From assembly GCF_900112005.1 (NCBI RefSeq), contig NZ_FOKK01000003.1, positions 62,001 to 126,000 on the forward strand: 64,000 bases of DNA, written 5' to 3'. Below the pieces are notes generated by a model. It did no database searches. It had not been told where the DNA came from and saw nothing but the letters and a program-made list of their open reading frames with translations. The DNA is from Algoriphagus aquimarinus. GTDB taxonomy: Bacteria > Bacteroidota > Bacteroidia > Cytophagales > Cyclobacteriaceae. Below, piece after piece: positions 3,436 to 19,241 of the stretch. Both the position numbers and the translations under genes were made by a program. The first letter of the stretch is position 1. Each line of letters begins with the position of its first letter.

Positions 3436-3522
3436 TTGCCACAACTGAAAACCGATATTATTCTGCTTAAAATGAGTTCGAAACACGCATTTTGAGCCAA
3501 TGGATGCATTTTGTACAAAAAA

Positions 3523-3553
3523 AAGAAGTCCCAATATCTATTTGGGACTTCTT
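3523..3553 (-). terminator. Intrinsic terminator after the DUF4136 gene
   Basis: A 12-base stem (AAGAAGTCCCAA and TTGGGACTTCTT) is followed on the minus strand by eight T residues. It lies about 60 bases after the stop of the minus-strand DUF4136 gene and upstream of the OmpA promoter. Confidence 0.85.
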
Positions 3554-3613
3554 AGAAAAACTGTGGAATACCTACACAGGTTGATTAATATATTACTCAG
3601 AAACAAGTAGACA

Positions 3614-4198
3614 TCATTCCATGAGTCGGTTGATGACTTTAAATTCATTCATAACCCTATAGGCAGCCCGAGTGACGTCAGATTGAAAGTTTGGAGAATC
3701 TGAATCAAAGTTAGCAGCAGTGTATCCTTGCCAAATTGTATTTCCTCTTTTACTATCTATCACGTAGATCACGAGCATTCCTTGGTTTTGAGTATATCTT
3801 ACTTGATTATAAGTCTCGTCTTTTTCCTGCTCCTTATCTAGTTCGCCACTTTCTTTCTCAGGTACCGTTCCTACGCGCTTCAGCCAATAGTCAAACTCCG
3901 GCTGTACATACCCACGATAGCGAATAGAATCCATGAAGATTTTATAACTCACCAATAAGTCTGGCTTATTATCTTGTTCTCTGAATCCTTGAGAACCTAA
4001 TCTAGCACCTATAGTAGCGCTCAATACTGGAGATATCATGCTTGTGTCCTTTTCAGTAGGAACTACGAAGGCAAAGGTTTTATACTTTTTGAAAGAAGCT
4101 TGGTAATTGTAGTCGTAGTCGGTGACATAATCTTTGGAAGAAAAGCATCCCACACAGATAAAAATAAGGAGGGTGAAAAGTAAGTAAGTATTTTTCAT
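3614..4198 (-). CDS. DUF4136 domain lipoprotein
   Basis: The protein has 194 residues with a lipoprotein signal ending VGC (Cys near 18). The rest matches the DUF4136 pattern: a Y-x-x-F-K-K-Y-K-T-F-A-F segment after the signal, a middle I-G-A-R-L-x-x-x-G-F block, and a C-terminal IWQGY followed by V-x-R-A-A-Y-R-V-M. Such proteins are periplasm-facing lipoproteins of unknown function. An acidic insertion (about 110-130, KESGELDKEQEKDE) looks like a surface loop. It is a single-gene unit with its own terminator. Confidence 0.85.
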   Translation of the reverse strand: MKNTYLLFTLLIFICVGCFSSKDYVTDYDYNYQASFKKYKTFAFVVPTEKDTSMISPVLSATIGARLGSQGFREQDNKPDLLVSYKIFMDSIRYRGYVQPEFDYWLKRVGTVPEKESGELDKEQEKDETYNQVRYTQNQGMLVIYVIDSKRGNTIWQGYTAANFDSDSPNFQSDVTRAAYRVMNEFKVINRLME

Positions 4199-4419
4199 GG
4201 CATTTGGGAATGAGTGGTTGAAAGATATTTTACTATGTACGAACTGGAGGGGTTAGGTGGATTTAACTAAAATTAACACCAACATGTTTAAATTAATGGA
4301 TTGTAGTTCAGGAGAATAGCTTATTAATTTACCATAATTTCAGTATAAATAAGATTCTGATTTTTATTTCCTTCTTTTTTTCGTTCGAAAAGAGTATTAA
4401 ATCACTAAAATGTCGGCTG

Positions 4420-5004
4420 ATGGATAGTTTTGAGAAATTAATAACTGAAGCGAAGGCTTGTCGATTATGTGAATCATTCCTGCCGCTAGGCCCCCGTCCA
4501 GTATTTTCTATACGTCCTACAAGTAAGATTCTGGTGATAGGTCAAGCTCCCGGAACTAAGGTTCACAAAACAGGTATTCCATGGAATGACCCAAGCGGGG
4601 ATGAATTGAGACGATGGTTAGGAGTAGATAGAGATGTGTTTTACGAGCCGGAGATTTTTGGGATTATGCCTATGGGTTTTTGCTATCCGGGTAGGGGAAA
4701 AGGGGGAGATATGCCGCCAAGGCCAGAGTGCGCTCCTACTTGGCATGAGAGAATGAGAGCTCAGATGCCTGTGGTTCAGTTGACCCTGTTGATTGGGCAA
4801 TATGCCCAGAAGTACTATTTGGGAGCGACTAGAAAGAGGACACTTACAGAGACCGTCATGGCTTTTGAAGAGTATTCGCCAGTGTATATTCCTTTAGTTC
4901 ATCCTTCTCCGCGCAATCGCATGTGGCAACGCAGAAATCCTTGGTTTGAGGAGGAAGTGGTCCCGACGCTCCGTGACCGTGTACATGAGTTGATTCGGGT
5001 ATAG
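4420..5004 (+). CDS. Uracil-DNA glycosylase family protein with Fe-S cysteines
   Basis: The protein has 194 residues of the UDG superfamily, which removes uracil from DNA at the start of base-excision repair. Motif GQAPG (41-45) and the C-terminal HPSPRN motif (161-166) form the active site. Cys14, Cys17, Cys88 and Cys104 match the CxxC...C-x15-C pattern that holds a [4Fe-4S] cluster in family 4 enzymes. The residue after the first Gly of motif A is Gln rather than the Glu typical of family 4, so substrate range may differ. It stands alone between oppositely oriented genes, with no clear promoter box in the AT-rich 220 bases upstream. Confidence 0.85.
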   Translation: MDSFEKLITEAKACRLCESFLPLGPRPVFSIRPTSKILVIGQAPGTKVHKTGIPWNDPSGDELRRWLGVDRDVFYEPEIFGIMPMGFCYPGRGKGGDMPPRPECAPTWHERMRAQMPVVQLTLLIGQYAQKYYLGATRKRTLTETVMAFEEYSPVYIPLVHPSPRNRMWQRRNPWFEEEVVPTLRDRVHELIRV

Positions 5005-5194
5005 ATTAAAATCTTTTAGTTGTGGTTTCTAGCTGAAAATTAGTTTGTAATCTACGACTCTGAAAATCGAGCAAGTGACTTTCTAAATGCTATGATTTGG
5101 AAAAAACAGGAAGTCATATGATGTGTCTTCATTCCTTTCAACAGAAATCTCCTTTCGGAAATAAATACCCAAGTAGTACCAGTCTATAATAAGC

Positions 5195-6118
5195 TCAGCT
5201 TTTCAGACAAACGCTCAGCCCTTCCTTCATCAAAGTAGGCTTGAGCCCATATTCTTTTTGGATCTTGGAAGAGTCAAAGCAATAGTCAGAATCCGACTGA
5301 TAGCGAAGCTCAACGATTTCTTTCATCACAGACATGAAAATACCTAAGGTACTTACCAGCCAGGCGGGCATGACTTGTATTTTGAGCTTAGTGTTAAGTT
5401 GATTATTGACCATTTCTACGATTTCTTTTCCCGTAGGGTAAGAAGAATCAGTAGGGAGATTCCAAGTTTGATTCCATGCATCATCTTGTAGCGCCAGAAA
5501 TGCTGTAGCTTTCCCAGCATCAGGAATGTAAATGAATGAATGCTTTTTGTCTCCTGAATAGAGCCATTGTGCACCTTTTCCTGATTTCATTCGCTTAATT
5601 ACCAATTCGTTTAAAAAAGAATTGCTGGCTTCAGGACCGTAGAAGTCAGGTGCACGAGCGACCAAAGCTTTGAGCTTACCAGTTTTCACATTTACCCAAA
5701 GCATATCCAAAATCTGTTTTCTCACTTTCCCTTTTCGACTTTCTGGCTTCAAAGGAGTCTCCTCGGTGAGATGCCCGATATGGGTAGGATCACAAGCATA
5801 CATGTTGTCAAAGAAAACCAAGTTGGCTCCATGGGCGATGCAGGCACCTAATGTGTTCTTCATGATCTTTGGCCAGTCTCGCTTCCAGGTTGAGGACTTA
5901 TACTGTATGCCAGCCAATAAATAAACAACTTCAGATCCTTTTACGGCCTCGGACAAGGCGGCTGCATCCAACAAATCTCCAGAGAATAGTTCATCAGTTT
6001 CATTCACTTTTTGAGGTTTGCGACTGAACTGGCGAACTAGTACGTCTGACTTAGATAGCTCTGCAGAAACGATTTTGGCAATATTGCCATTGGCACCGAG
6101 AATGGTATGAAGGGGCAT
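5195..6118 (-). CDS. NAD(P)-dependent epimerase/dehydratase family protein
   Basis: This 307-residue Rossmann-fold protein is of the extended SDR/YbjT-like type. The N-terminal GANGNIA dinucleotide motif (8-14) has Ala instead of the third Gly. The VYLLAGIQY and FFDNMYACDP strands follow. The usual catalytic YxxxK is replaced by an SRKGKVR segment near 135. The substrate is unknown, and the missing Tyr argues against a classical sugar epimerase. A hydrophobic segment near 255-275 (VMPAWLVSTLGIFMSVM) is probably a helix packing the C-terminal domain. No operon partner is seen; the 190-base spacer before the glycosylase gene is empty. Confidence 0.85.
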   Translation of the reverse strand: MPLHTILGANGNIAKIVSAELSKSDVLVRQFSRKPQKVNETDELFSGDLLDAAALSEAVKGSEVVYLLAGIQYKSSTWKRDWPKIMKNTLGACIAHGANLVFFDNMYACDPTHIGHLTEETPLKPESRKGKVRKQILDMLWVNVKTGKLKALVARAPDFYGPEASNSFLNELVIKRMKSGKGAQWLYSGDKKHSFIYIPDAGKATAFLALQDDAWNQTWNLPTDSSYPTGKEIVEMVNNQLNTKLKIQVMPAWLVSTLGIFMSVMKEIVELRYQSDSDYCFDSSKIQKEYGLKPTLMKEGLSVCLKS

Positions 6119-6180
6119 GTGTTAGAAGTTTTATTATAGGCTTGAATAAATCATAGTATTCAGAAAGTTGAATTCAGGAA

Positions 6181-6430
6181 ATGTCAAAATCCTTACTCCC
6201 AAGATAAGTTATTCACGAGTAAATATTTGTCCAGACTTGTTGCCCTTGTATTATTCTTTTCTTGACAATCCAAAAACACATCTGACTATGAGGCTGATTT
6301 GCTTAGCTACATAGGAACTTCAACGGCAATTACAGACGTATTGCAAGCAAAAAAGAAGGCAATATCAGACCTTGTCTTTTCTCTGAATAACTCTCAGAGA
6401 GATTCGGTGAACCTTTGGGTTTAGCTTTTC
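6181..6430 (+). pseudogene. Relic of the 5' end of a FAD-dependent oxidoreductase gene
   Basis: This stretch aligns with the leader and first codons of the intact oxidoreductase at 9091-9340. The bases before the start are nearly the same (GATAAGTTATTCAC and AATAAGTTATTCAC). The ATG has become AGT at 6218-6220. The frame from 6221 reads KYLSRLVALVLFFS, then TGA (6263-6265) where the intact gene has its lipobox Cys. It continues as SDYEADLLSYIGTSTAIT, matching SDYEADLIIYGGTSAAIT. Similarity fades after about 6430 and the catalytic body is absent. It is a truncated, decayed duplicate. The 130 bases between it and the GH95 gene hold nothing recognisable. Confidence 0.85.
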
Positions 6431-6560
6431 TCTCATAAAGATTATGAGGAAATCTTCGATATCTCGACTATAGTAGATTAAATTCAAGACCAGCATTAAA
6501 GGTCTAAAGAAATAGATCAGTATGTAGTATGATTATAATTAGTAACAACTCAGTAGTATT

Positions 6561-9014
6561 ATGATAAGTAGTTTTTTTCAAAAGTCCTGTTTTTTAGTTC
6601 TTTTCAGTATTCTAGGATGTCAGTTTAGTCAGGCACAATCGACAGATAAATCCTTGTATTTCAAAAAGCCAGCAGTCAACCATCTGGAATCATTACCCAT
6701 TGGCAATGGGCATTTGGGGGGGATGATATTTGGGAACCCAAATCAAGACAGAATTATTCTAAACGAGAAAACACTTTGGTCAGGAGGGGTACAGGATGCA
6801 GATCGAGAAAACGCGCATCAGTACTTAAGTAAGATTCAAACGCTTCTGTTAAATGGGAATAATAAGGAGGCCGAGGCTTTACTTCAAGAGCATTTTGTCA
6901 GTAAAGGAGTGGGTTCGGGAGAAGGCATCGGAGCCAATGAGCACTATGGAAGTTATCAGACACTTGGAGATCTATTGATCAGCTGGGCGGATACACTTCA
7001 AGGATATGAGAATTACTCCAGAGTATTGGATTTGCAGGATGCTATTGCTACTACCACATGGAAGAGAAACGGTGTCACTTTTACACAGGAAGCCTTTTCC
7101 AGTATTGCTGATGATGTAATGGTCATCAAACTTTCTGCATCCAAGGCAGCACAATTGAGTTTTGCTATTGGATTGGATAGAAAGGAAAACGTAGCTTTTT
7201 CTTCAGCCGGAGATGATATTTTACTTATGACTGGGCAATTGCCAAATAAAGATCTTGCTGGGATGAAATATGCGGCTATGCTCAAGGTGGTTCAAGAAGG
7301 AGGGACTATCAAGAATACGGGGAAGCAGCTAGAAGTAGATGGGGCCGATGTTTGCTATTTGATTATTGCCGCTACGACGGATTATAACATTGATTCACCT
7401 GCTGAGCCTATAGGAGATCCAGTAAAGGAGGTTTCCAAAACGATTTCTGACTTTAAAATCGCTACAGCCAGAGCAAACCATATTCAATCCTATCAGGAAT
7501 ACTTTAATAGGAATAGCTTTCAATTGACAAGTCAAGACAAAGGAGTTTCTAAACTTTCTACTCCCGAGCGACTACAGCGATATGCGGAAGGAAATGAGGA
7601 TGCGCAGCTTCCGGTGCTCTATTATAACTATGGGAAATATCTCCTGATCTCCTCTTCACAGCCGGGGCAGTTACCAGCAAATTTGCAAGGGATCTGGGCG
7701 CCAGAATATCAGGCTCCTTGGAATGGAGATTATCATTTGGATATCAATATTCAAATGAATTACTGGTTGGCCGAACCCTTAGGCTTAGGAGATTTAGCTG
7801 AGCCTATGCATCGATTTACTGCCAATTTGGTGGAGAGTGGTGAGAAGACAGCAAAAGCATATTATGATGCTCCTGGTTGGGTGGCTCATGTGATTAGTAA
7901 TCCTTGGTATTATACCTCTCCAGGTGAAGGTGCGGGTTGGGGATCTACAATGTCTGGGGGATCCTGGATGACAGAGCATTTGTGGGAGCATTTTCGATTT
8001 ACTCAGGACACAGCTTTCCTGAAGGCCTATTATCCAGTGTTGAAAGGAGCATCTGAGTTTTTATCATCTATACTCATTGAGGAGCCTGAGAACCATTATT
8101 TGGTGACAGCACCATCCAACTCACCCGAGAATTCTTATATCAAACCGGATGGTTACCGTGGGCATACCGCTATGGGGCCGACGATGGACATGCAGATAGG
8201 TAGGGAGCTTTTTGGAAATACTATTGAGGCAGCTGAGATTTTAGGGATTGATCAGGACTTCACAGCTATACTGGCAGAGAAAAGAGCGAGATTGGCTCCA
8301 AATAAGATCGGGGCAGCTGGAGATCTAAACGAATGGCTACATGACTGGAAGGAGACTGATCCGCATCACAGACATATTTCTCACTTGTACGGCCTACATC
8401 CTTATGATGAAATCACGCCATGGGCAACACCTGACTTGACATCTGCGGTGACAGAGACACTCAAGGATAGAGGAGACGATGCTACAGGTTGGAGTAGAGC
8501 TTGGAAGATTAATTTTTGGGCAAGACTAGGTGACGGTGATCATGCCTTATTGCTGTTGAAAAAATTACTTCAGCCAATTGGTGGAGACGGTTCTAAAATC
8601 GTTTGGGGAGATGGGGGAACCTATTCCAATTTATTTTGTGCGCATCCTCCATTTCAAATTGATGGGAATTTTGGTGGCACCGCAGGTATTGTAGAAATGC
8701 TATTTCAAAGCCATGGTCAAGATGAAGTCATCCGATTGATTCCAGCTCTTCCTAGCAGTGAAAGCTGGCAGAAGGGATCAGTAAAAGGAATGCACGCTAG
8801 AGGCGCATTTGTTGTTGATTTCAGTTGGGCAAAAGGCAGAATAGCTGCTGCGAATATTCATTCCTTAAAAGGTCTGGACTGTAAAGTGCTACTTCCAGCG
8901 GGGATGAAAATCTTGGATGCTAGCGGAACTCAATTGGGAGAAAATACTGGTAATGATGCCAAGGAAGTTGAATTTGAAACAAGAGCAGGGATGGATTACC
9001 AATTGGTGAAATGA
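6561..9014 (+). CDS. Glycoside hydrolase family 95 protein (alpha-L-fucosidase type)
   Basis: The 817-residue exported enzyme has full GH95 length. After a signal peptide (cleavage near FSQAQ, or a possible lipidated Cys20) come the N-terminal beta-sandwich with [10 protein letters not shown] (46-55) and [10 protein letters not shown], then the (alpha/alpha)6 barrel with [20 protein letters not shown] (392-402), [19 protein letters not shown] and [11 protein letters not shown] (696-706). Glu523 (SPEN) and Asp701 match the known catalytic acid and base-side residues. The first Asn of the Asn-x-Asn pair is Asp394 here. GH95 enzymes release alpha-1,2-fucose, some alpha-L-galactose, from glycans. 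It is followed by an oxidoreductase on the same strand. No SusC/SusD pair is present. Confidence 0.93.
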
Positions 9015-9127
9015 TCTGACTAGACTTCTGAATTGGATTGTGTTAGCAGACCTAGATAAAATACATTATTTTGAGAGGCGAACATCCGTACTGTCAAAAT
9101 TCACTCACCCGAAATAAGTTATTCACT

Positions 9128-10774
9128 ATGAAATTTTTATCCAGCCTAGTTGTCCTACTGTTATTATTCTCTTGCCAACCCCAAAAAAATGCTTCTGACT
9201 ACGAAGCAGATCTGATTATTTACGGCGGAACTTCAGCGGCTATTACAGCGGCTGTGCAGGCAAAGAAAATGGGTAAAACAGTCATTATCGTTTCTCCGGA
9301 TACCCATTTAGGAGGATTGTCTTCCGGTGGTTTGGGCTATACCGATACAGGGAATAAGTCTGTGATTGGAGGTTTGGCTCGTGAGTTTTATCATCGCGTA
9401 TATATGCATTACCAGACGGACTCGGCTTGGAAATGGCAGAAAAAGGATGAGTATGGAAATAAGGGTCAAGGCACTCCAGCGATGGATGGGGAGAATAGAA
9501 CCATGTGGATTTTTGAACCCCATGTGGCGGAGCAGGTTTTTGAGGGTTTTTCCAAAGAAAATGAGTTGGAAATTCACCGAAATGAATGGTTGGATAGAGA
9601 ATCCGGTGTAACCAAAGAGAATGGCAAAATCACTCAGATCAAAACGCTATCAGGCAAAACCTATTCTGGAAAAGTATTTATAGATGCGACTTATGAAGGA
9701 GATCTGCTGGCTGCCGCTGGAGTAAGCTATCATGTGGGAAGGGAATCGAATGCGACCTACGGTGAAAAGTGGAACGGAGTGCAAGTGGGTGTCTTTCAGC
9801 ACAAGCATTATTTCAATGTGAATATTAGCCCTTATGTGATCGCTGATGATCCTGCTAGCGGATTGCTTCCTGAGATATCGACTAATCCTCCTGGAGAGAA
9901 TGGGGAAGGAGATAAGAGACTGCAGGCTTACAATTACAGAATGGCACTAAGTCGCCATCCTGATAATCGTGTGCCTTTTGCGAAGCCAGAGAACTACGAC
10001 CCCGCTCGCTATGAACTTCTTGCTCGGGTCTATGCAGCTGGACGGGATGATACTTTTGAGAAATATGATCCTATTCCAAATCTCAAAACTGATACAAATA
10101 ATCACGGACCTTTCTCGACGGATTACATAGGAAAGAACTATGCATACCCAGAAGCAAGCTATGAAGAGAGAAAGGATATCCTTCAAGAGCATATTGACTA
10201 TCAAAAAGGTTTGATGTACTATTTAGCAAATGATCCTAAAGTGCCGGCTGAAGTTCGTGAAGAAATGGCGCAATGGGGATTGGCGAAGGATGAGTTTACA
10301 GACAATGGCAATTGGCCACATCAAATCTATGTGCGTGAAGCCAGACGAATGATCGGAGCTTATGTGATGACTGAGCACGATGTGCTTGGTGCCAAAACTG
10401 TTCCTGAGCCAGTTGGAATGGGTTCATATTCCTTGGATTCACATAATGCGCAGCGATTTGTGACTGCAGAAGGTTTTGTGCAGAATGAAGGTGATATCGG
10501 GGTTCACCCAGAGAATCCCTATTCAATTTCCTACGGTACGCTAGTGCCAAAGAAAGAAGAATGCACTAATCTGATTGTTCCTGTGTGCGTTTCCAGTTCA
10601 CATACAGCTTTTGGCTCGATCCGAATGGAACCTGTTTTTATGATTTTGGGACAGTCAGCCGCTGCTGCAGCTTCCTTGGCAATTGATCAAGGGATTCCAG
10701 TTCAGGAGCTGAGTTATGCCGATTTGAAAGTAGTTTTGGATGAAGAGAAGCAGATTCTAACTCAGGAAAAGTAG
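9128..10774 (+). CDS. FAD-dependent oxidoreductase, lipoprotein
   Basis: The 548-residue protein belongs to the FAD_oxidored class often found beside glycoside hydrolases in Bacteroidota (sometimes called xanthan lyase-like). The start at 9128 gives a short lipoprotein signal ending FSC (Cys16); the longer open frame from 9071 does not. The dinucleotide motif DLIIYGGTSAAITAA is at 28-42, followed by THLGGLSSGGLGYTD (59-73). A C-terminal segment with SSHTAFGSIRMEPVFM and GQSAAAAASLA closes the FAD site. The substrate is unknown; position suggests oxidation of a sugar freed by the GH95 enzyme. The 5' end of a second copy survives as a relic at 6181-6430. Confidence 0.9.
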   Translation: MKFLSSLVVLLLLFSCQPQKNASDYEADLIIYGGTSAAITAAVQAKKMGKTVIIVSPDTHLGGLSSGGLGYTDTGNKSVIGGLAREFYHRVYMHYQTDSAWKWQKKDEYGNKGQGTPAMDGENRTMWIFEPHVAEQVFEGFSKENELEIHRNEWLDRESGVTKENGKITQIKTLSGKTYSGKVFIDATYEGDLLAAAGVSYHVGRESNATYGEKWNGVQVGVFQHKHYFNVNISPYVIADDPASGLLPEISTNPPGENGEGDKRLQAYNYRMALSRHPDNRVPFAKPENYDPARYELLARVYAAGRDDTFEKYDPIPNLKTDTNNHGPFSTDYIGKNYAYPEASYEERKDILQEHIDYQKGLMYYLANDPKVPAEVREEMAQWGLAKDEFTDNGNWPHQIYVREARRMIGAYVMTEHDVLGAKTVPEPVGMGSYSLDSHNAQRFVTAEGFVQNEGDIGVHPENPYSISYGTLVPKKEECTNLIVPVCVSSSHTAFGSIRMEPVFMILGQSAAAAASLAIDQGIPVQELSYADLKVVLDEEKQILTQEK

Positions 10775-10784
10775 TTCTTTTGAA

Positions 10785-10815
10785 AATTTTTAACCGCGGT
10801 GGACACGGAGGATTA
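10785..10815 (-). repeat. Interspersed filler element (copy 2)
   Basis: TTTTTAACCGCGGTGGACAC is the inverted counterpart of the element at 2441-2479, with only a few changed bases. It begins about 10 bases after the oxidoreductase stop. Two copies 8 kb apart in opposite orientation support a dispersed repeat rather than chance. Confidence 0.55.
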
Positions 10816-10884
10816 TGCAGATAGCGTAAAATAATTAGTATTGTTATCGTTCAAGTAAAACGAATGGTTGAGTAGGACTTAATG

Positions 10885-11096
10885 GTTGCACCCCTTCGGG
10901 GCTTGATTTTACTAATATTTTCTCTGCCCCCGGCTTTGCCGAGGGTTATGAATTGTTTCAATCCTTCGGATCTTCCTTGAAGAAAATATTTAAGCTTTTT
11001 ATAAAGGAAAAGGGCTGAAAGCCCAAAATACCCTAGCCCAGTCCGATAGGGCTGGGTTGAAAAAGATTATTCAATTGTACAAGCTCTGAAGGAGCG
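10885..11096. repeat. Composite intergenic repeat of successive small hairpins
   Basis: Within 210 bases lie at least six compact inverted repeats: CCCC-TTC-GGGG (10891-10901), CCCCCGGC-TTT-GCCGAGGG (10927-10945), ATCC-TTC-GGAT (10961-10971), GGGCT-GA-AAGCCC (11012-11024), a CCCAGTCCGATAGGGCTGGG region (11037-11056) and GCTC-TGAAG-GAGC (11083-11095). None has a T-tract and there is no open frame. The GGGCTGAAAGCCC plus CTCTGAAGGAGCGAAAT arrangement resembles, from memory, a dispersed repeat family of Bacteroidota. It fills most of the 470-base spacer between the oxidoreductase and the PadR promoter. Confidence 0.6.
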
Positions 11097-11207
11097 AAAT
11101 ACTCCTACCCACCATGTTTTCTGATGACTCAATTCAGGTTTGAGATCTAAGTAAAAATTGCGTGCAATATTTTTATTCACATATCATCTACAAATATGAA
11201 AGTAATC

Positions 11208-11235
11208 TATTACATTTACTTTTGTAAATATAATA
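11208..11235 (+). promoter_or_regulatory. PadR operator overlapping the promoter -7 box
   Basis: A 28-base dyad has 12-base arms TATTACATTTAC (11208-11219) and GTAAATATAATA (11224-11235) separated by TTTT. The arms pair at 11 of 12 positions. It contains TACTTTTG (11217-11224), an exact -7 TAnnTTTG box, 22 bases before the padR ATG. PadR dimers bind such AT-rich dyads, so self-repression of padR and the permease is the simple reading. Confidence 0.75.
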
Positions 11236-11245
11236 GAAGACGTTT

Positions 11246-11587
11246 ATGAAGGGCTATAATTTAGGTGAATTGGAAGAGTTGATTCTACTGACTGTGGGGA
11301 TCTTGGATCAGGAGGCTTACGGAGTCGCTATACTGGAAGAGATAAAAAACCAAACCGGCAGAAAAGTCAATATCTCAGCGATTCATACTGTTTTGAACCG
11401 ACTGGAAGAAAAGGGCTTTTTGAAATCCTACATGGGAGGTGCGACTGAAGAAAGAGGAGGTAGACGAAAGCGCTTGTTCTCAATATCGGCTACGGGCAGA
11501 GCTGCTATAGAAGAAGTCAAGAATGTCAGAAATAAACTCTTCGACCAACTTCCTCCCTTGGCTTTAGATTTTTCTCATGGACACTAA
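11246..11587 (+). CDS. PadR family transcriptional regulator
   Basis: This 113-residue winged-helix repressor matches PadR: a helix with LGELEELILLTVGIL, then YGVAILEEI, then SAIHTVLNRLEEKGFL (recognition helix and start of the wing), GGRRKRLFSISATGRAAIEE (wing and following helix), and a short C-terminal dimerisation helix. The protein should bind the dyad over its own promoter. Its last 11 bases overlap the permease gene, so regulator and transporter are translationally coupled. PadR-permease pairs like this are common in Cytophagales. The inducing signal is unknown. Confidence 0.93.
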   Translation: MKGYNLGELEELILLTVGILDQEAYGVAILEEIKNQTGRKVNISAIHTVLNRLEEKGFLKSYMGGATEERGGRRKRLFSISATGRAAIEEVKNVRNKLFDQLPPLALDFSHGH

Positions 11588-14183
11588 ACTCAAGCATCAT
11601 CCACCCAAATGGCCAGATCGGTTTCTGGAATTCTACTGCAGTCCCAGTCGATTGGAGCAGATACAGGGAGATGCATATGAGCTTTTTTATATGAATTTGG
11701 AGGAGCGAGGCATACGCTACGCAAGATTCCGATTTCTCATCCATGTACTCAGTTTTTTCAGATGGGGCAATATCAGACGATCAAAACCTTCTTATCAGAC
11801 CTATAACCAAGGAGCTATGTTTAAGAACTATATGAAAATTGGCTGGAGAAATCTTGTCAAGCAAAAAGGAACGACCTTCATCTCAATCTTTGGGTTAGCA
11901 GCTGCTGTGGGTTGCTGCTTGGTGGCTTATCTATTTATTGAGCAAGTTTGGTTCAAAGGCATGCATCAGGAGAATAAAGATGAGATTTACCAGATTACTT
12001 ATACGGCCGAAGGTGAAAACGGAAAGACTACCTATGGCACTGTAGCCGAGCCGATTTCGGAATTGATTAGCGATGAATTGCCGAATATCAAAGCTCAAAC
12101 GCGAATTCTGACTGATTTCCCTGTTCTTATTCACAAAAATGAGAGCTATTTCCAACGCGCTCAATATGTGGATCCAGGTTATATGGAGATGTTTACCTAT
12201 TCCATGCTTTATGGTTACCCCGGCGCATTGAATGAACCGGAACAGGTTATTTTGACTGAGGAGCTTTCTACAAAGCTCTTTGGTAATACCCATCCTATTG
12301 GACAGGACATCGCGCTGATTACTAATGGGGAAGAAAAGCTCTACAAAGTGGGAGGGGTTTTCAAGTCATTCAATGATATGGAAATGTTCAACTTTGACTT
12401 GCTAGTGAACATGTCAACTCATTCAAATGAAAATCATGCTCTACCTCTAAAGGATGCCTGGGCGTCAGAATTATGGACATTCATTCAGCTGGAAAAAGAT
12501 GTGGATGCTGGTAGTTTATCCACGGGACTTGCAGAAATTGTAAGTGCTCAGAATAAGATCAATCCTGAAAATCCATACCTGAGTCTTCAGCTTGAATCTT
12601 TCAACGACTTGGTGAAGAATTCTGAGAATGTAGAAAGAGGTGTGGTTAGTTTCTTGGCAGTTGCACCCCAGATTTTACTATCAGCAATCGGGATTTTTAT
12701 TTTGATTTTGGCAGTGTTCAATTACATCAATATTTCTATTTTGATGGCTTCCAGACGTCTCAAAGAAATAGGTGTTCGTAAGGTGATTGGTAGCAATAAG
12801 GGGCAACTGATCGCTCAGTTTCTCAGTGAAAATCTCATGGTCTGCTTCATGGCTATCGTATTGGGACTCTTATTAGCCGCTTTTATTTTCCTTCCAGGCT
12901 TCAATGAAATAGCCTCGAAAAACATCAAAATTGATCTGCTAAATGATCATTTAGTCTGGATGTTTTTAGGTGCTATGCTGCTATTTATTACGTTAGTTTC
13001 TGGACTGTACCCAGCGATTTATATCACCTCATTTAAGCCAATCAATATCCTGAAAGGGAATCAGCAAATGGGGAGCAAAAGTGTCTTTACTAGTGTTTTG
13101 CTAACTTTCCAGTTTACGCTTGCTATCATCAGTATTGTAGCGGGAGTTGCTTTTGTGCAGACCAATCACATCAATGCAAATCGCGATTGGGGATATGATA
13201 GCTCAGATAAGATTATTGTAAATGTTCCAAGTTCTCAGGACTACTTGCCGCTTAAAAACAAATTGTCAGCACTGGCTTCTGTGATCGAAGTCAGTGGAAG
13301 TCAAGATTATGTGGGGAATTGGATACGTGAAGAAGAGCTTGTTTTTCATGAGGAAAAGTATGAAATCAGCCTTTTGAATGCAGAGGCTAATTATCCTGAA
13401 TTATTGGATTTGAAACTGAAGCAAGGCAGAATGTTCAACACAGAACTGATCTCTGATACGCAGGAATCAGTTCTCGTAAATCAGACTTTCTTAGATGAAC
13501 TAGGACTGATTTTTCCCCTAACTGAAAAAATTATCTTAGATAGTGCAAGCTATGACGTGGTAGGTGTGGTGGAGGATTTTCATACCATATTCTTCCAAAG
13601 TTTTATTGATCCTATGGTGATCCGGGCTTCTCCAGATACTACGTTCAACTACCTCACGCTGAAAATGACTTCTGGAACAGCTTATTCTTCTATGGAGTCA
13701 GTGAAGAAAATCTGGCATGAAGCTATTCCCAGAGGACTATTTGAGGGAAAATTACAAACTGAAGTATTTGACCGTGAATTCAGTGACGTGAACGGAGTAA
13801 GTAATATTCTGTTGTTTTCTGCGATACTAGCAGTGGTTCTGGCGGCTCTCGGACTCTTTGGATTGGTGTCTTTGAATATGAATTCCCGTATCAAAGATTT
13901 CTGCGTGAGAAAAGTGTTTGGCGCCGATGCGGGAGATCTGTCCATGAAGTTGGCGAAGAGATATTTGATTATTTGGGGAGTTGCTTCGGTGCTTGGTGGA
14001 GGAATATCGATAGTTCTTGTTTCAGCTTTTCTAAATACCTTCTTTGCTTTCCACTCAGGGGTAGGTTTGATTCCAATAGGCTTAGGTCTTTTGATTCTAT
14101 TGCTTGTCGTCGCAGGGACGGTTGGATCTCAGATTTTGAAAATAGTGAAGGCAAATCCGGCTACGATTCTCAAAGCGGAATAA
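11577..14183 (+). CDS. ABC transporter permease with PadR-linked prefix domain (MacB/FtsX type)
   Basis: The 868-residue protein starts with an approximately 75-residue soluble prefix (PPKWPDRFLEFYCSPSRLEQIQGDAYELF) matching the permease prefix domain found only on PadR-linked permeases. Two MacB/FtsX-type halves follow. Membrane segments lie near 105-125, 375-400, 425-450, 475-495, 515-535 and three more after about 750. Large periplasmic MacB_PCD-like domains lie at about 125-370 and 540-740. The motif RRLKEIGVRKVIGSNKGQL, and its echo RIKDFCVRKVFGADAGDL in the second half, mark the coupling loops. No ATPase is adjacent, so it may borrow one or act as a mechanotransmission protein. Confidence 0.9.
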   Translation: MDTKLKHHPPKWPDRFLEFYCSPSRLEQIQGDAYELFYMNLEERGIRYARFRFLIHVLSFFRWGNIRRSKPSYQTYNQGAMFKNYMKIGWRNLVKQKGTTFISIFGLAAAVGCCLVAYLFIEQVWFKGMHQENKDEIYQITYTAEGENGKTTYGTVAEPISELISDELPNIKAQTRILTDFPVLIHKNESYFQRAQYVDPGYMEMFTYSMLYGYPGALNEPEQVILTEELSTKLFGNTHPIGQDIALITNGEEKLYKVGGVFKSFNDMEMFNFDLLVNMSTHSNENHALPLKDAWASELWTFIQLEKDVDAGSLSTGLAEIVSAQNKINPENPYLSLQLESFNDLVKNSENVERGVVSFLAVAPQILLSAIGIFILILAVFNYINISILMASRRLKEIGVRKVIGSNKGQLIAQFLSENLMVCFMAIVLGLLLAAFIFLPGFNEIASKNIKIDLLNDHLVWMFLGAMLLFITLVSGLYPAIYITSFKPINILKGNQQMGSKSVFTSVLLTFQFTLAIISIVAGVAFVQTNHINANRDWGYDSSDKIIVNVPSSQDYLPLKNKLSALASVIEVSGSQDYVGNWIREEELVFHEEKYEISLLNAEANYPELLDLKLKQGRMFNTELISDTQESVLVNQTFLDELGLIFPLTEKIILDSASYDVVGVVEDFHTIFFQSFIDPMVIRASPDTTFNYLTLKMTSGTAYSSMESVKKIWHEAIPRGLFEGKLQTEVFDREFSDVNGVSNILLFSAILAVVLAALGLFGLVSLNMNSRIKDFCVRKVFGADAGDLSMKLAKRYLIIWGVASVLGGGISIVLVSAFLNTFFAFHSGVGLIPIGLGLLILLLVVAGTVGSQILKIVKANPATILKAE

Positions 14184-14250: not shown

Positions 14251-14604
14251 ATGGAGGTTAATTATTCTCAGGAAAAAGGGTTGATAAGCTATGTGATCAA
14301 TGGGGAAATCACAGTCGATGATATGCGTCAATTGCAGGAGGCAAGAAATCAGCTTGCCACAATAAGCGCATTAAAAGTATTGGCGATTGTAACTTCTTTT
14401 AAAGGTTATAAAAGCTTCAAAGCCATGAAAGATGCGCTTTTGGGAGATTGGAGAATGCTTCCTAGGCTATCCAAATACGCAATGCTCACAGATAGCACTT
14501 GGCTGCGGGCTTTGATTTTTATCTTAAACCTTTTGGTTCTAAAAAGTGAGCTGAAAGCATTTCCCTTACGAGATCGCAAGTTAGCCGATAGGTGGTTGGA
14601 GTAG
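14251..14604 (+). CDS. SpoIIAA-like (STAS-fold) protein
   Basis: The 117-residue soluble protein resembles the SpoIIAA-like/STAS family: an N-terminal strand pair with GLISYVINGEITVDDMRQL, a central strand KVLAIVTSFKGY, and later ML-x-RLSKYAMLTDSTWLRAL, where family members have KVAVVGD...W. The C-terminal FPLRDRKLADRWL fits the family ending (F-x-x-x-E-x-A-x-x-WL). The function is unknown; such proteins may bind lipid or act in stress signalling. It lies 67 bases after the permease with no clear terminator between, so read-through is possible. Confidence 0.7.
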   Translation: MEVNYSQEKGLISYVINGEITVDDMRQLQEARNQLATISALKVLAIVTSFKGYKSFKAMKDALLGDWRMLPRLSKYAMLTDSTWLRALIFILNLLVLKSELKAFPLRDRKLADRWLE

Positions 14605-14655: not shown

Positions 14656-16461
14656 TTAGGTCATGCTAGCTTCTACAGGCTTACTTAACTGTTCGATTTC
14701 GCATTTGATTTTAGCGAACTGATCTGCCATTTTTTCAAGGATTGCACTGGAATCTACCTCTACTTTATCTATCAACTCTTGGTAGTATTCTACTCCTTGA
14801 ATCAGGTTAATTCTGAATTTTTCCAAGTAAGCTTCCTTCTTGGCTACTTTCTCAGTGACTTTGGTGTCAAATTCCTTTTTCAAGTAAGTCACATATAGTT
14901 GCAATTCCTTCACAAAAACATGCGGTCTGTCTATATCCACTTTTAGCGAAAGCTTGCCATAGATATGATCTGCCATTTCTTTGAGTGAAAAAGTACCTTT
15001 GAAGTAAGCCAGATTCGGTCCAGGACAAATGGTAACTGCATTGAGATTACGTCGCGGAGTTTCACCTGCTGCCAAAATTGCGGGAGCGCTCAGTCCTTCG
15101 CAAAGGCAGTCTTTAGCTTCTACTTTTTCCATTTCTTCCGCTTCTATTTCTCCAGCCTCGAATTGCTTTGCTTTAAGGTCTTGATATTGTCTGGAAGCTG
15201 TGCAAATCGGCTTGTCTGTGAACTCGGTATTATTCATCAGAAACTTCTTGTAGCAAGGACTTCCAGCTCTGTTCTTCTCAATTCTTACTACTCGCTGTTC
15301 CTCGCCTGAGGAAGTTCGGAGATTGTTAAAAGGTACTCCGAGTGGAGAGGCATGGCTCAGGTAGAAGTCAGATTTTTTTGCTTGGAAGAGTCGGTCTAAA
15401 GTGTCGCCATCCACAGAGGTTGCTTCGGGCACTAGAAGAAAAGGACTTCCCCAACCAGTTCCGTCGAGTTCATAGTACTCGCGTAGAAAGCTATCCTCGC
15501 TTGCCGTTCCTATTCCACCTTGGTAGGTGATCTTGAAAGTTGGTGAGTTTGAAAGTTTGAATATTTCCTTGCCTTCCAAGGCACTTTGACAAGTGTCAAA
15601 AAGTGTTTGAAACAGCTCATTTCTGTTGTTTTTGAACTCTTCCAAAATCGGTCCGATCAGAAAGCCATCCGTTGCAAATGCATGGCCGCCACAGTTCAGA
15701 CCAGATTCTATTCTGAATTCGGAAACCCAAAGTCCCTTCTTTGCCAAGAATTTCCCTTGGATCAAAGCAGATCTATAGTCACTTACTTTTAGGATGATTC
15801 CTTTCGAAATCTCTCCGAATTGATTTGGGTAAAATTCTGAAAATTGCTCTGCATATCCGTACAGAGCCGGGTTCATTCCTGCAGAAAATACTACCGATCC
15901 ATTGGCTTTGCTCTTGGCAAAACCTCTCAATGCAGACAAGGCATCTGAGTATTCTCGTGGTAATTCATTGCCTGCTTTATCGATGTTTATCTTGTCCACC
16001 TTCGTCATGATATTCACGTCGACAGCGCCTATGCTCAGCTTGGATTTCAATTCTTCTTTGAGTTGAAATTTCTCAGAATCCGAAGCTGTTACCATCTTTG
16101 CCAGCAAGTCTAATAGCATAGTATTTTGAGGCAAAAGGTCCAAGTACTTTCTGAATTCGGTATTGGTTTGCCAGTCGGCATTGATTAATTTATTGAATTG
16201 CTCTTCCACGAGAGACTGAGTCAAATCCAGGTAGGCAGTGATTCGCTTTGCCCGATAATCCTCTTCAGTGTCTGAGATAGGAATGAATTCACGCACAAAT
16301 TTCTTCGAGTAGATTTTTCGCATGTCTTCGAGCAGATGATCATCCATAATGGAGATCACACTTGAAATGCCATATTTGGCCACTTTGATCGGAGTGTCTA
16401 CAGTATATCCTAATCCCATAACTGGGATGTGGAATGTGTGTGTTAATGATTGAGAATTCAT
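14656..16461 (-). CDS. Uncharacterised 601-residue protein, possible FMN TIM barrel with cysteine cluster
   Basis: I do not recognise a named family with confidence. The first residues (HIPVMGLGYTVDTPIKVAKYGISSVISIMDD) and the later GGIGTASEDSFLREYYELDGTGWGSPFLLVPEATS (about 315-349) resemble the start and the phosphate-binding end of nitronate monooxygenase/GltS-type FMN barrels. Between them are FRIESGLNCGGHAFATDG (249-266) and a long helical insertion. After the barrel, Cys403, Cys420, Cys452, Cys454 and Cys479 form C-x16-C...C-x-C...C, a possible Fe-S or Zn site. The C-terminus (490-595) is helical. There is no signal peptide, so it is probably cytosolic. It is a single gene. Confidence 0.6.
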   Translation of the reverse strand: MNSQSLTHTFHIPVMGLGYTVDTPIKVAKYGISSVISIMDDHLLEDMRKIYSKKFVREFIPISDTEEDYRAKRITAYLDLTQSLVEEQFNKLINADWQTNTEFRKYLDLLPQNTMLLDLLAKMVTASDSEKFQLKEELKSKLSIGAVDVNIMTKVDKINIDKAGNELPREYSDALSALRGFAKSKANGSVVFSAGMNPALYGYAEQFSEFYPNQFGEISKGIILKVSDYRSALIQGKFLAKKGLWVSEFRIESGLNCGGHAFATDGFLIGPILEEFKNNRNELFQTLFDTCQSALEGKEIFKLSNSPTFKITYQGGIGTASEDSFLREYYELDGTGWGSPFLLVPEATSVDGDTLDRLFQAKKSDFYLSHASPLGVPFNNLRTSSGEEQRVVRIEKNRAGSPCYKKFLMNNTEFTDKPICTASRQYQDLKAKQFEAGEIEAEEMEKVEAKDCLCEGLSAPAILAAGETPRRNLNAVTICPGPNLAYFKGTFSLKEMADHIYGKLSLKVDIDRPHVFVKELQLYVTYLKKEFDTKVTEKVAKKEAYLEKFRINLIQGVEYYQELIDKVEVDSSAILEKMADQFAKIKCEIEQLSKPVEASMT

Positions 16462-17006
16462 ATATACCTAAGATGAAATTTGCACTTATTTGAAAAAGTA
16501 AAATTAGGCCCAATGACAGCCCCTTTGCCTGCCAGGTCTCAGTGCTGGGTCTGACTTTCGTCATGTTTTGTGAATTCGGGTTTTTTACCGAAGCGTGCAC
16601 CAGTGTTTAGCAAAAGGAGACATTGCGACAATTGTAAATCCCACTAGTCGTCAACTTGATAATTGCCCACTGAATCTGAACATTGATCATTAGCATTGAA
16701 AAACAAGCAACTAGCAACCGATAACTATTTGCATCTGTTTTCCCATTTTAAATTTTATGTATATCCGCTTTTCTACCAGTAAAGAGGGAAAAGCAATCTA
16801 GAATTTGTTCAAATTTATAATTGAGGTCACTTCGGTCTTCGGTCATCGGTCTTCCGACCAGATAAACAAAGAATCTAAGGCAACTGGCATCATTGCGGAT
16901 AATCACATTAAATTTTAAATTCACCCATTTCTAATTGCCCTTTCAAAAATATTTCTCTTCCCCTGTAGCGTCTCGAGGAAGAACTCCGTCAGGGTAATAA
17001 AGAAAG
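16462..17006. other. 545-base spacer with quasi-repeat filler, no gene seen
   Basis: No credible open frame or RNA gene is visible. The DNA contains runs of short imperfect reiterations, each with its own theme: GAACATTGATCATTAGCATTG at about 16678-16698, GCAACTAGCAACCGATAACT at about 16708-16727, CTTCGGTCTTCGGTCATCGG at about 16830-16849, and ATTAAATTTTAAATTCACCC at about 16908-16927. The last ~80 bases before the small secreted protein gene are AT-rich and may hold its promoter, but no consensus box is clear. Confidence 0.5.
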
Positions 17007-17329: not shown

Positions 17330-17878
17330 TTGAATTGGACTGACCAAGAGCTGATCGAAGGTTGCAAACGAAAATCGGCTAAGTACGAAGAGGTATTCTA
17401 TAAAAAATACTATGGCTATGTCATGGGGATCAGTCTGTCTTATTCCAAAGATAAAGCTCTAGCCGATGAGATCACCAACGACTCATTTATGAAGTTTTTT
17501 GGTTCGATCAAGAAATTCGAAGACTTCCAGTCTGTAAAGGCTTGGCTTCGCCGCATCACTGTAAACACCGCGATAGACTATTTCCGTAAGCAGAAGAAGT
17601 TTCAAAATCAAACCGACGTGTCAGAGGAAACTGGCATATTCCATGAAGTGAATGCGCTGCAGGATCTAGCATTTCAGGATATAGTAAACCTAATCAATCT
17701 ATTACAGGACGATCACAAAATGGTGTTCAATCTCTATGAGATCGAAGGCTATAGTCATAAAGAAGTTGGCGAAAAGCTGGGCCTGACGGAAAGCTCCTCC
17801 AGAGTTTATCTGGCTAGAGCAAAGTCTCAACTTCGCCAATTAGTATCATTACACTTGAAAGAATATGAAGGAAGATAA
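17330..17878 (+). CDS. ECF-type RNA polymerase sigma factor
   Basis: The 182-residue sigma-70 family factor has region 2 at about 20-95 (YYGYVMGISLSYSKDKALADEITNDSFMKFF, then VKAWLRRITVNTAIDYFRKQKK) and region 4 at about 120-175 (LLQDDHKMVFNLYEIEGYSHKEVGEKLGLTESSSRVYLARAKSQLR). It would direct RNA polymerase to a small regulon, often including its own operon. The only in-frame start compatible with region 2 is TTG at 17330, since a stop lies at 17312 and no ATG occurs before residue 31. The gene overlaps the next by 14 bases, so sigma factor and partner are coupled. Confidence 0.92.
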   Translation: MNWTDQELIEGCKRKSAKYEEVFYKKYYGYVMGISLSYSKDKALADEITNDSFMKFFGSIKKFEDFQSVKAWLRRITVNTAIDYFRKQKKFQNQTDVSEETGIFHEVNALQDLAFQDIVNLINLLQDDHKMVFNLYEIEGYSHKEVGEKLGLTESSSRVYLARAKSQLRQLVSLHLKEYEGR

Positions 17879-19241
17879 GCTAGATGAGGAAATCGCTGCT
17901 TCCCTTAAAAAGAAGTTAGTCGAAGCCTCCGTACCCTACGAACTGGGTGCATGGGAAGTGTTTCAGAAAAAACGCGCACAGCGCAAACGTAGGGCTATTG
18001 CCTATTGGGCATCTGGAATCGCTGCGTCTCTACTGCTCATCGCAGTGGGGCTTAATACTGTGGATACCCCTGAAAAGAATACGCCAAGTTCTCCTGAAAA
18101 TCAGCTGACAGAAAATGCTGAGAAACCTTCTGAAAATGGAGTAGAGGAAATAATTACCAGGGAAACTGAAGCAGTTGCTGAAAATTCAGCTGTTGAAATT
18201 CAAGAAAGGCTAGCTCCAGAAACAAATGATTCGAGCTCTAAAGCATCGGAGGAAGCTCCGAAAGTCCAAAAGTCTGAGACAAATCCTACTGATACAAAAG
18301 CTTTAGCTACTGTTCCTCAGCCTGTAAAAAAGGCTATAGAAAAGCCCGTGAAAACGGAAAACGTGGTACCTACGGTACCAATAATTTCCAATGAAAAAGC
18401 TGTAGCTCAAGTACCTGAAAAACAAAGCTCACAACAGCAGACACTTATAACCAAAGTGGAGCAAGTGGAAAAGCTAGAAGAGTTGAAGGCTCCAGAGGAG
18501 ACGTTGGCTTTGGCAAAAGTTGAAGAGCCCGTGAAAGCTGTAGAAAAGGAGAAGTTTGTAGCAGAAAATGACTTTCCTATAATTGAAAAAGATAAAGCAT
18601 CGGTAGGGCTAGGGATGGGGCTTTCTCCAGGTTTCGGAGCGATCCAAAGCGATAATCAAGTAGCTACAGCTCAATCGATTGGATTGGGAATGCTGGTAAA
18701 TATAGATCTTCCGGGCAAGCTTACCTTAGGCTCTGGTCTTGGTCTGAACTACCTCAACCAAAATAATGAACAGGAAAGCACGGTGATGTCTTTAGGCAAT
18801 ACCTATCCGCAGGTACAAAAACTGGAAGTACGTCAGATGCAGGTAGAAGTGCCTGTCTTCGTGAAATATCCTGTAACCAGAAATAACTCCGTTTCCATAC
18901 AGGCTGGTTTTTCAAACTATTACGCATTAAATCAAACAGCTAGTCAAGAAAATACCACGGAGCGCCAATCTGCTTTTTATGCAAATGATGCATTGGGTAG
19001 TTCTTCGGTCTCCCTTCGTCAGCAATCAGTGACAGAAAGCTCTATGCTAGAATCTAACAGTGGTAAATTCTATCCTTTTGCCGCGCTGAATTTTGGAGTC
19101 AATCTACGAGTCTTGGAGACCAAAGGCGCCAACTATGTGGTTATGCCATTCTACAATTACCAGCTGAAGCAGGTCTCTGGCTATGGAGATACTTATGGTT
19201 TATTTGGCGCTAGCTTCAAGATGAATTTTGGAGGGAAGTAG
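17865..19241 (+). CDS. Anti-sigma-like inner-membrane protein with C-terminal beta-barrel-like domain
   Basis: The 458-residue protein is coupled to the sigma factor and is probably its regulator. Residues 1-42 are a charged cytoplasmic segment (ELGAWEVFQKKRAQRKRR) like short anti-sigma domains. A single membrane helix lies at about 43-62 (AIAYWASGIAASLLLIAVGL). Then comes a long Glu/Lys/Pro/Ala-rich linker (about 65-240) reminiscent of TonB-like periplasm-spanning rods. The last ~215 residues have alternating glycine-rich strands (GLGMGLSPGFGAI, LGSGLGLNYL, FKMNFGG) typical of outer membrane beta-barrels. If so, one chain could link both membranes. A purely periplasmic beta domain is the alternative. 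Confidence 0.75.
   Translation: MKEDKLDEEIAASLKKKLVEASVPYELGAWEVFQKKRAQRKRRAIAYWASGIAASLLLIAVGLNTVDTPEKNTPSSPENQLTENAEKPSENGVEEIITRETEAVAENSAVEIQERLAPETNDSSSKASEEAPKVQKSETNPTDTKALATVPQPVKKAIEKPVKTENVVPTVPIISNEKAVAQVPEKQSSQQQTLITKVEQVEKLEELKAPEETLALAKVEEPVKAVEKEKFVAENDFPIIEKDKASVGLGMGLSPGFGAIQSDNQVATAQSIGLGMLVNIDLPGKLTLGSGLGLNYLNQNNEQESTVMSLGNTYPQVQKLEVRQMQVEVPVFVKYPVTRNNSVSIQAGFSNYYALNQTASQENTTERQSAFYANDALGSSSVSLRQQSVTESSMLESNSGKFYPFAALNFGVNLRVLETKGANYVVMPFYNYQLKQVSGYGDTYGLFGASFKMNFGGK

Follow-up and report, generated by a model that had tools for sequence, protein, structure and literature searches.

A Bacteroidota protein family with six invariant cysteines and a genomic link to denitrification genes: a putative flavin barrel followed by a candidate iron-sulfur subdomain

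The window analyzed here is a stretch of 64,000 nucleotides of Algoriphagus aquimarinus (contig NZ_FOKK01000003.1, positions 62,001 to 126,000). Among its genes is one for a 601-residue protein, which is preceded by a palindrome of the FNR/DNR type and is the subject of this report; the positions of the gene and of its parts are listed in Table 1. The bounds of this open reading frame (ORF) had been given exactly by a first-pass annotation made from the letters of the window, which did not mention the strand. The gene is present as a single copy in the 5.1-Mb genome of its host. Homologues were searched for in 395 genomes, all sampled from the phylum Bacteroidota, and the family was matched in 142 of them, mostly at full length and with about 45 to 65% identity. 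A comparison of the window gene with those of five close species yielded a ratio of nonsynonymous to synonymous substitution rates (dN/dS) of 0.04 to 0.07, with dS being high at 0.7 to 2.1. The matches in the phylum and the low dN/dS together indicate that the gene is real.

Table 1. The gene for the 601-residue protein, its predicted parts, and the upstream box, in positions of the window
Feature	Position	Strand	Basis
Coding sequence of the 601-residue protein	14656..16461	minus	ATG start; homologues; dN/dS 0.04-0.07
Predicted barrel start, residues 8-55 (FHIPVMG ... YGISSVISI)	16297..16440	minus	Conservation; strand 34-38, seen in just the first model (pLDDT 40-46 there)
Helical insertion between predicted strands 1 and 2, residues 56-142	16036..16296	minus	Helices 69-94, 101-109, 113-125, and 128-142 in the model of residues 1-395 (block pLDDT 55-82 over 61-140)
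Remaining predicted barrel, residues 143-386	15304..16035	minus	Strands and helices alternate in both models; 1-386 aligns with FabX 0-267 (chain 9lt8)
NCGGH, residues 256-260; counterpart of the NMO EAGGH loop with its His; Cys257 invariant	15682..15696	minus	56/56; aligned with EAGGH by hhalign
QGGIG, residues 314-318; candidate FMN-phosphate loop	15508..15522	minus	Q314, G315, G316, and G318 in 56/56; residue 317 I or V; aligned with NMO AAGGI
Cysteine region C-x16-C-x31-C-x-C-x24-C, residues 403-479, last Cys in CPGPN	15025..15255	minus	Five Cys in 56/56
C-terminal helices, residues 485-592, conservation falling toward the end	14686..15009	minus	Alignment and first model
FNR/DNR-type palindrome TGACGAAAGTCA, 90 nt upstream of the ATG	16552..16563	minus	Pattern scan
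NMO, nitronate monooxygenase; FMN, flavin mononucleotide; pLDDT, predicted local distance difference test.

The window protein has eight cysteine residues, at positions 257, 291, 403, 420, 452, 454, 479, and 587. Conservation was judged from 56 aligned sequences that included the window's own. Six of the cysteines, Cys257, Cys403, Cys420, Cys452, Cys454, and Cys479, are invariant in all 56, Cys291 is kept in 18, and Cys587 is not conserved; an earlier alignment of 35 rows gave the same result for the cysteines. The further residues found in every sequence are His260, Asn150, Glu252, Gly315, Gly316, Gly318, Pro480, Gly481, and Asn483. The first-pass annotation had named the cysteines from 403 to 479 at their correct positions and had left open whether they vary among homologues, which the 56 sequences exclude for all five; the equally invariant Cys257 was missing from its list.

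This annotation had also stated that the protein fits no family, which holds with respect to sequence. At an E value of 1 or below, the window protein matched none of the families in Pfam, NCBIfam, or PHROGs. The PDB sequences gave no match to it either, and the best E value obtained there with the family profile was 0.27; precedent for the architecture comes from FabX, which is compared below. A scan of 29 members yielded weak matches, the best being Apolipoprotein (1.4e-5) and subunit A of alpha-xenorhabdolysin (2.6e-5), and 10 of these members matched NF001645 at 7.8e-4 or worse. Weak matches were located on the protein for 14 of 28 homologues, which were scanned singly in two sets of ten with six common to both. 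Most of them fall on the helices of the insertion or of the C-terminal part, and all of those displayed are below the curated cutoffs. For instance, the Apolipoprotein and xenorhabdolysin matches of one homologue (L025) are on these two helical parts, NF001645 matched the insertion or residues 251 to 304, and residues 390 to 439 of another homologue (L042) matched the Plasmodium domain CPW_WPC with an E value of 0.048. A search of viral contigs, plasmids, and phages found no relative, and a literature search of titles and the starts of abstracts found no paper naming the family, a weak negative result for a family without a name.

In the own genus and family the distribution is patchy, with the gene present in three genomes (G000, G194, and G273) and missing from six (G076, G111, G049, G146, G186, and G320). 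When 99 genomes were searched with the profile, no distant paralogue that would link the family to the NMO proteins was detected. In the same search, none of the 21 genomes of family f18 contained a real match, and a single 13.6-bit match in G010 was taken as noise. Additional copies were observed in two genomes. One of them (G152) has two full-length copies on two contigs, and in the other (G095), which has an intact copy, a second copy at positions 4371170 to 4372943 of contig C1 is fragmented in several frames and represents a decayed paralogue.

Candidate motifs of an NMO core were found in the same order in the family and in NMO proteins, by eye and partly by hhalign. They are VVFSAGMNP in the family and VFTSAGNP in NMO, RIESGLNCGGH and AEGFEAGGH, ITYQGGIG and IAAGGIG, and GWGSPFLLVPEA and GVQVGTRFAASEES, respectively. 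Both loops that characterize NMO, the GGH loop with the active-site His and the GGI loop that follows the sixth strand, are present, with G258, G259, H260, G315, and G316 occurring in all 56 sequences. Structures were predicted with AlphaFold for the full-length protein and for residues 1 to 395, from an input of only six close sequences. The "large insertion" of the first-pass annotation corresponds to residues from about 56 to 142, which are helical in both models. When the model of residues 1 to 395 was compared with known structures by VIA-align 2, 13 of the 19 top rows were proteins with the NMO fold, with Z scores between 6.3 and 7.3, and the other six were three ene reductases and three chitinases. 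The NMO-fold rows were the enoyl reductases DfnA (7.3) and MlnA (7.1), five entries of FabX (7.2, 7.2, 7.1, 7.0, and 6.6), three of PfaD or related proteins (6.8, 6.7, and 6.6), PA1024 (6.6), a 2-nitropropane dioxygenase (6.5), and FabK (6.3). This result gives moderate support to a barrel of the NMO type. A Foldseek search with the full-length model gave no match below an E value of 0.15, with many of the rows listed being triosephosphate isomerase (TIM) barrels.

The first-pass annotation had considered the gene monocistronic and its context therefore of no help. Across genomes, this is wrong, because the gene lies repeatedly near nosZ, nirK, and genes for the cbb3 oxidase and is frequently preceded by an FNR-type box. 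There is no fixed operon in the 45 loci inspected. Judged by named proteins or homology clusters, nos genes are near the family gene in four loci (L036, L038, L051, and L060), NirK in two (L048 and L051), and the cbb3 genes ccoNO and/or a heavy-metal P-type ATPase in three (L060, L068, and L073), with a CRP/FNR-type regulator also near the gene in L073. In L036 the gene is flanked by RIC and an Rrf2 regulator; positions 3467 to 12081 of this locus form a compact island of KatG, the iron-center repair protein RIC, the family gene, the Rrf2 regulator, a small protein, and NosZ.

Co-occurrence was counted in 198 genomes, 75 with and 123 without the family gene, with P values that ignore kinship. 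NosZ scored above the cutoff in 73 of the 198, and 38 genomes possessed both NosZ and the family gene (Fisher P = 0.0023). In 17 of these 38, both genes were on one contig, and in 11, from nine genera and four families, they were within 12 kb. NirK exceeded the cutoff in 33 genomes, of which 21 also had the family gene (P = 0.0014). Adding 11 NirK-like matches, all from genomes with the gene, changed P to 1.3e-7, a value to be read with the fact that this group was added after the table had been seen. At least one of nirK, nirK-like, or nosZ was present in 57 of the 75 genomes with the gene compared to 41 of the 123 without it (P = 6e-9). In 32 genomes the family gene occurs together with nirK or a nirK-like gene, and distances were computed for 20 of them. 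The pair was on one contig in 17 of these, no more than 6.1 kb apart in 5 and no more than 26 kb apart in 10; the two genes were on different contigs in the other 12 genomes. The genome of the window has nirK, and NosZ was not found there above the cutoff. The NirK-like group itself, with 130 to 177 bits to TIGR02376 and thus below the cutoff, comprises 11 genomes among the 198, all of which also hold the family, 8 of them on the same contig, and is possibly a divergent clade of nitrite reductases.

Regions of 330 nt upstream of the 56 family members, window included, were scanned for regulatory palindromes. The box TGAYNNNNRTCA was found in 19 of them, compared to 1.17 expected from first-order simulations (maximum of 5 in 300 runs) and to 1 of 56 in a coding control; this pattern had been refined on the same data, after full FNR boxes (0 of 45) and a number of different palindromes had been tried. 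Counts of the TGA and TCA half-sites were highest at a spacing of 6 nt (21 of 56), and the remaining spacings from 0 to 11 gave between 1 and 10. After removal of five sequences close to the window (L002 to L006) and of a near twin (L010, resembling L058), 14 of 50 regions still contained the box (simulated mean of 1.1, maximum of 6 in 1,000 runs), and the best of other rearranged palindromes occurred in 5 of these 50. Only the TGAY/RTCA core is present, and a full box with the outer T and A was found in none of the 56. As described in PMC1274295, this core is that of the boxes for DNR (TTGAT-N4-ATCAA) and HcpR (TTGAC-N4-GTCAA). The same box is upstream of ccoNO in L060 and L068 and upstream of nirK in L048 and L051, and nirK of the window genome has TGACAAAAGTCA about 180 nt upstream. 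By eye, the stretch between the box and the ATG (window 16461 to 16563) appears conserved in the five close Algoriphagus loci; it is perhaps the promoter and leader. No match to Rfam was found in the window.

In the genome of the window, CTGAYN4RTCAG occurs at 28 places, compared to 13 for the reversed pattern, and 23 of the 27 places examined (L124 being left out) are inside ORFs. The count for TGAYRAAAGTCA is 22 places compared to 4, 16 of them inside ORFs. The six outside ORFs are located at the gene for the 601-residue protein, at nirK, at a gene resembling the MBL fold (L151, by eye), and at three further loci (L150, L162, and L164). A regulon was not drawn from this genome-wide scan.

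The neighborhood of the gene in the window includes a SpoIIAA-like protein (14251 to 14604), convergent with it and separated from it by 51 nt, and farther away a PadR regulator followed by a permease of the MacB/FtsX type (11246 to 14183), the matched domains of which begin at residue 100. A gene for a sigma-70-family factor overlaps a gene with a weak match to an outer membrane barrel (17330 to 19241), and a glycoside hydrolase of family 95 is encoded at 6561 to 9014.

On balance, these data favor an FMN barrel of the NMO type, followed by a C-terminal cysteine subdomain of the Fe-S type, as in the build of FabX but with another cysteine pattern, and used at low oxygen. The protein would be a soluble flavin enzyme with the helical block from about residue 56 to 142 inserted into an NMO-type TIM barrel, a fold it probably has. 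FMN, whose presence is likely, would be located at the QGGIG and GWGSPF loops, with His260 of NCGGH as acid/base next to the flavin and the adjacent Cys257 as a redox residue or an additional cluster ligand. The invariant cysteines of the C-terminal subdomain would hold an Fe-S cluster, which is somewhat more to be expected than zinc, and this cluster may relay electrons between the flavin and a partner outside the protein, as described for the [4Fe-4S] cluster of FabX. A regulator of the FNR/DNR type would turn on the gene at low oxygen or in the presence of nitrogen oxides, and expression at low oxygen is indeed probable. The gene product would thus serve cells living by denitrification or microaerobic respiration.

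A number of results weigh against this explanation. PF03060, the NMO family, gave no score at an E value of 1 or below for the window protein; it was absent from the matches of 10 homologues scanned singly and did not appear in the 25 of 30 families displayed from the scan of the 29 members. The alignment of the family to NMO by hhalign reached a P of 0.011 over 163 columns with 8 sequences and of 0.24 over 61 columns with 22 sequences, and HisF was nearly as good with 0.018 over 38 columns; IMPDH (P = 0.55) provides no bridge. With the insertion and the ends removed, the score rose from 18.3 for the uncut protein to 24.7 (P = 0.015), whereas 60 column shuffles averaged 15.6 and reached 23.7 at most, and reversed NMO scored 11.4; with -corr 0.3, P was 0.0003, and the global mode gave nothing. 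Little weight is given to the trimmed result because the cut and the settings were picked after the alignment had been seen. Cross-scores of hidden Markov models were hardly above the controls: one homologue reached 7.3 bits compared to at most 4.0 reversed and 3.2 shuffled, and in the converse direction the peak was 4.4 compared to 2.9. The sequence tests alone do not show a kinship to NMO. Confidence in the models is low, with a mean pLDDT of 42 at full length and of 47 for residues 1 to 395 (predicted template modeling score, 0.52). Foldseek found nothing below an E value of 0.05 for the latter and ranked malate synthase first. In VIA-align, ranks 1 and 2 were a chitinase (Z of 7.5 and 7.3), and this tool warns that a Z under 8 may reflect just a common arrangement. 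The family gene is missing in 35 of the 73 NosZ genomes and 12 of the 33 NirK genomes, and 37 of the 75 genomes with the gene are without NosZ, 18 being without nosZ, nirK, and nirK-like. The box is lacking in 37 of the 56 upstream regions, and a study of a wastewater reactor community reports no sign of a CRP/FNR control of denitrification in genomes of Ignavibacteria, Flavobacteriales, and Saprospiraceae (PMC8510549). The NMO-like barrel followed by a cysteine cluster, as proposed in the first-pass annotation, is the best fit, with motifs collinear to those of NMO and a VIA-align ranking that agrees with the barrel, but no profile test is convincing and the models are of low confidence. The low-confidence model resembles a TIM barrel, and a fold without one was not found.

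Alternative explanations use the same data. The cysteines of a barrel or of another alpha/beta enzyme may bind structural zinc instead of an Fe-S cluster, and the protein may still belong to a low-oxygen gene set. Invariant cysteines alone cannot discriminate between zinc and Fe-S, and the spacings of 16, 31, 1, and 24 residues differ from those of FabX; however, the sixth invariant cysteine, Cys257, is inside the putative flavin pocket, and an Fe-S flavoenzyme is among the structural matches. A zinc site is judged unlikely. A chance resemblance to NMO, with the protein being another TIM barrel and not a flavin enzyme, would agree with the weak profile scores and with the high structural ranks of chitinase and malate synthase. 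The invariant motifs are nevertheless collinear with those of NMO, and NMO-fold and ene-reductase barrels account for 16 of the 19 top VIA-align rows; coincidence is judged unlikely.

A role in assembling or repairing the denitrification enzymes that contain copper or heme (NosZ, NirK, and the cbb3 oxidase), instead of a metabolic one, is suggested by the repeated proximity to nosZ and nirK and by the heavy-metal P-type ATPase next to ccoNO. This is improbable: the position of the gene is variable, the 18 genomes mentioned above possess it without any of these nitrite or nitrous oxide reductase genes, and NosZ and NirK mature outside the cytoplasm, while the start of the 601-residue protein belongs to the conserved motif block. 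Least of all is the protein expected to be a true NMO that detoxifies nitronates formed along with nitrogen oxides. The common GGH and GGI loops and the 2-nitropropane dioxygenase among the structural matches would fit, but the extra cysteine subdomain and the missing PF03060 score would not, and the NMO reaction, as described in PMC3032703, consumes O2, which is at odds with an FNR-type box.

Returning to the FMN barrel with an Fe-S-type subdomain, the putative activity can be named only as a guess. The single likeliest one, still an unlikely one, is an acyl dehydrogenase/isomerase or reductase reaction like those of FabX and UfaA. More speculative still is an oxygen-independent step that keeps membrane building going without O2 in denitrifying Bacteroidota, in which a FabX/UfaA-like flavin and Fe-S acyl-acyl carrier protein (ACP) dehydrogenase/isomerase with a cluster of new cysteine pattern might deliver electrons into the anaerobic respiratory chain rather than to O2. 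A family of 600 residues with six invariant cysteines, present in 142 of 395 genomes of a phylum and with a window member that matches none of the three family databases, is unusual. Owing to the link to nirK, nosZ, and the FNR-type box, it is a candidate for a function needed without oxygen by N2O-reducing and other denitrifying Bacteroidota.

Among known enzymes, PfaD and the enoyl reductases of trans-acyltransferase polyketide synthesis, DfnA and MlnA, are similar as large NMO-fold barrels of 437 to 530 residues, with Z scores of 6.6 to 7.3. These proteins are not known to contain a cysteine cluster. The PfaD model TIGR02814 matched neither the window protein (no NCBIfam family at an E value of 1 or below) nor any other protein of its genome. 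NMO proteins of PF03060 share the GGH and GGI loops in the same order, but those compared here, of 312 to 362 residues, are without a counterpart of the insertion and of the C-terminal half. For UfaA/Npd of Neisseria gonorrhoeae (NGO1024), an identity of about 36% with a FabX-type protein has been stated; the window protein matches no NMO model. The ability of proteins of this kind to produce unsaturated acyl chains is known from FabX and UfaA. According to PMC11300592, UfaA works anaerobically, with an electron acceptor that is not known, and gonococcal npd is described as induced anaerobically (PMC3032703).

In build, the likeness is to FabX, the decanoyl-ACP dehydrogenase/isomerase of Helicobacter pylori, which combines an NMO fold with a [4Fe-4S] cluster; the literature describes this cluster as a second component of electron transfer. 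Its sequence was not matched in the PDB searches with the window protein or the family profile, its five entries among the top 19 VIA-align rows have 14 to 16% identity to the low-confidence model, and its chains of 350 to 372 residues leave no room for the insertion and the extended C-terminal part of the family. According to PMC8626469, the cluster is carried by residues 267 to 363, just past the barrel, with the spacing C300-x3-C304-x3-C308-x11-C320. The family possesses instead C403-x16-C420-x31-C452-x-C454-x24-C479 plus Cys257, and the FabX ligand pattern C-x3-C-x3-C-x11-C does not occur among these six cysteines, which are its only invariant ones. Since the profile and ligand tests were negative, the family is classed neither as NMO nor as FabX. 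By the low-confidence model, the barrel of the family would be followed directly by the cysteine subdomain, as in FabX, and His182 beside the flavin of FabX is matched by motif to the GGH-type His260. Chain 9lt8 pairs residues 1 to 386 of the model with FabX 0 to 267, so that the cluster subdomain of FabX and the cysteine region from 403 to 479 would start at about the same place. If the protein is FabX-like, it would represent a second, different way in which a flavin barrel of the NMO type is combined with an Fe-S cluster, and the question of the electron acceptor used without oxygen would become testable. The predicted architecture, a barrel followed by a cysteine subdomain, has its precedent in FabX.
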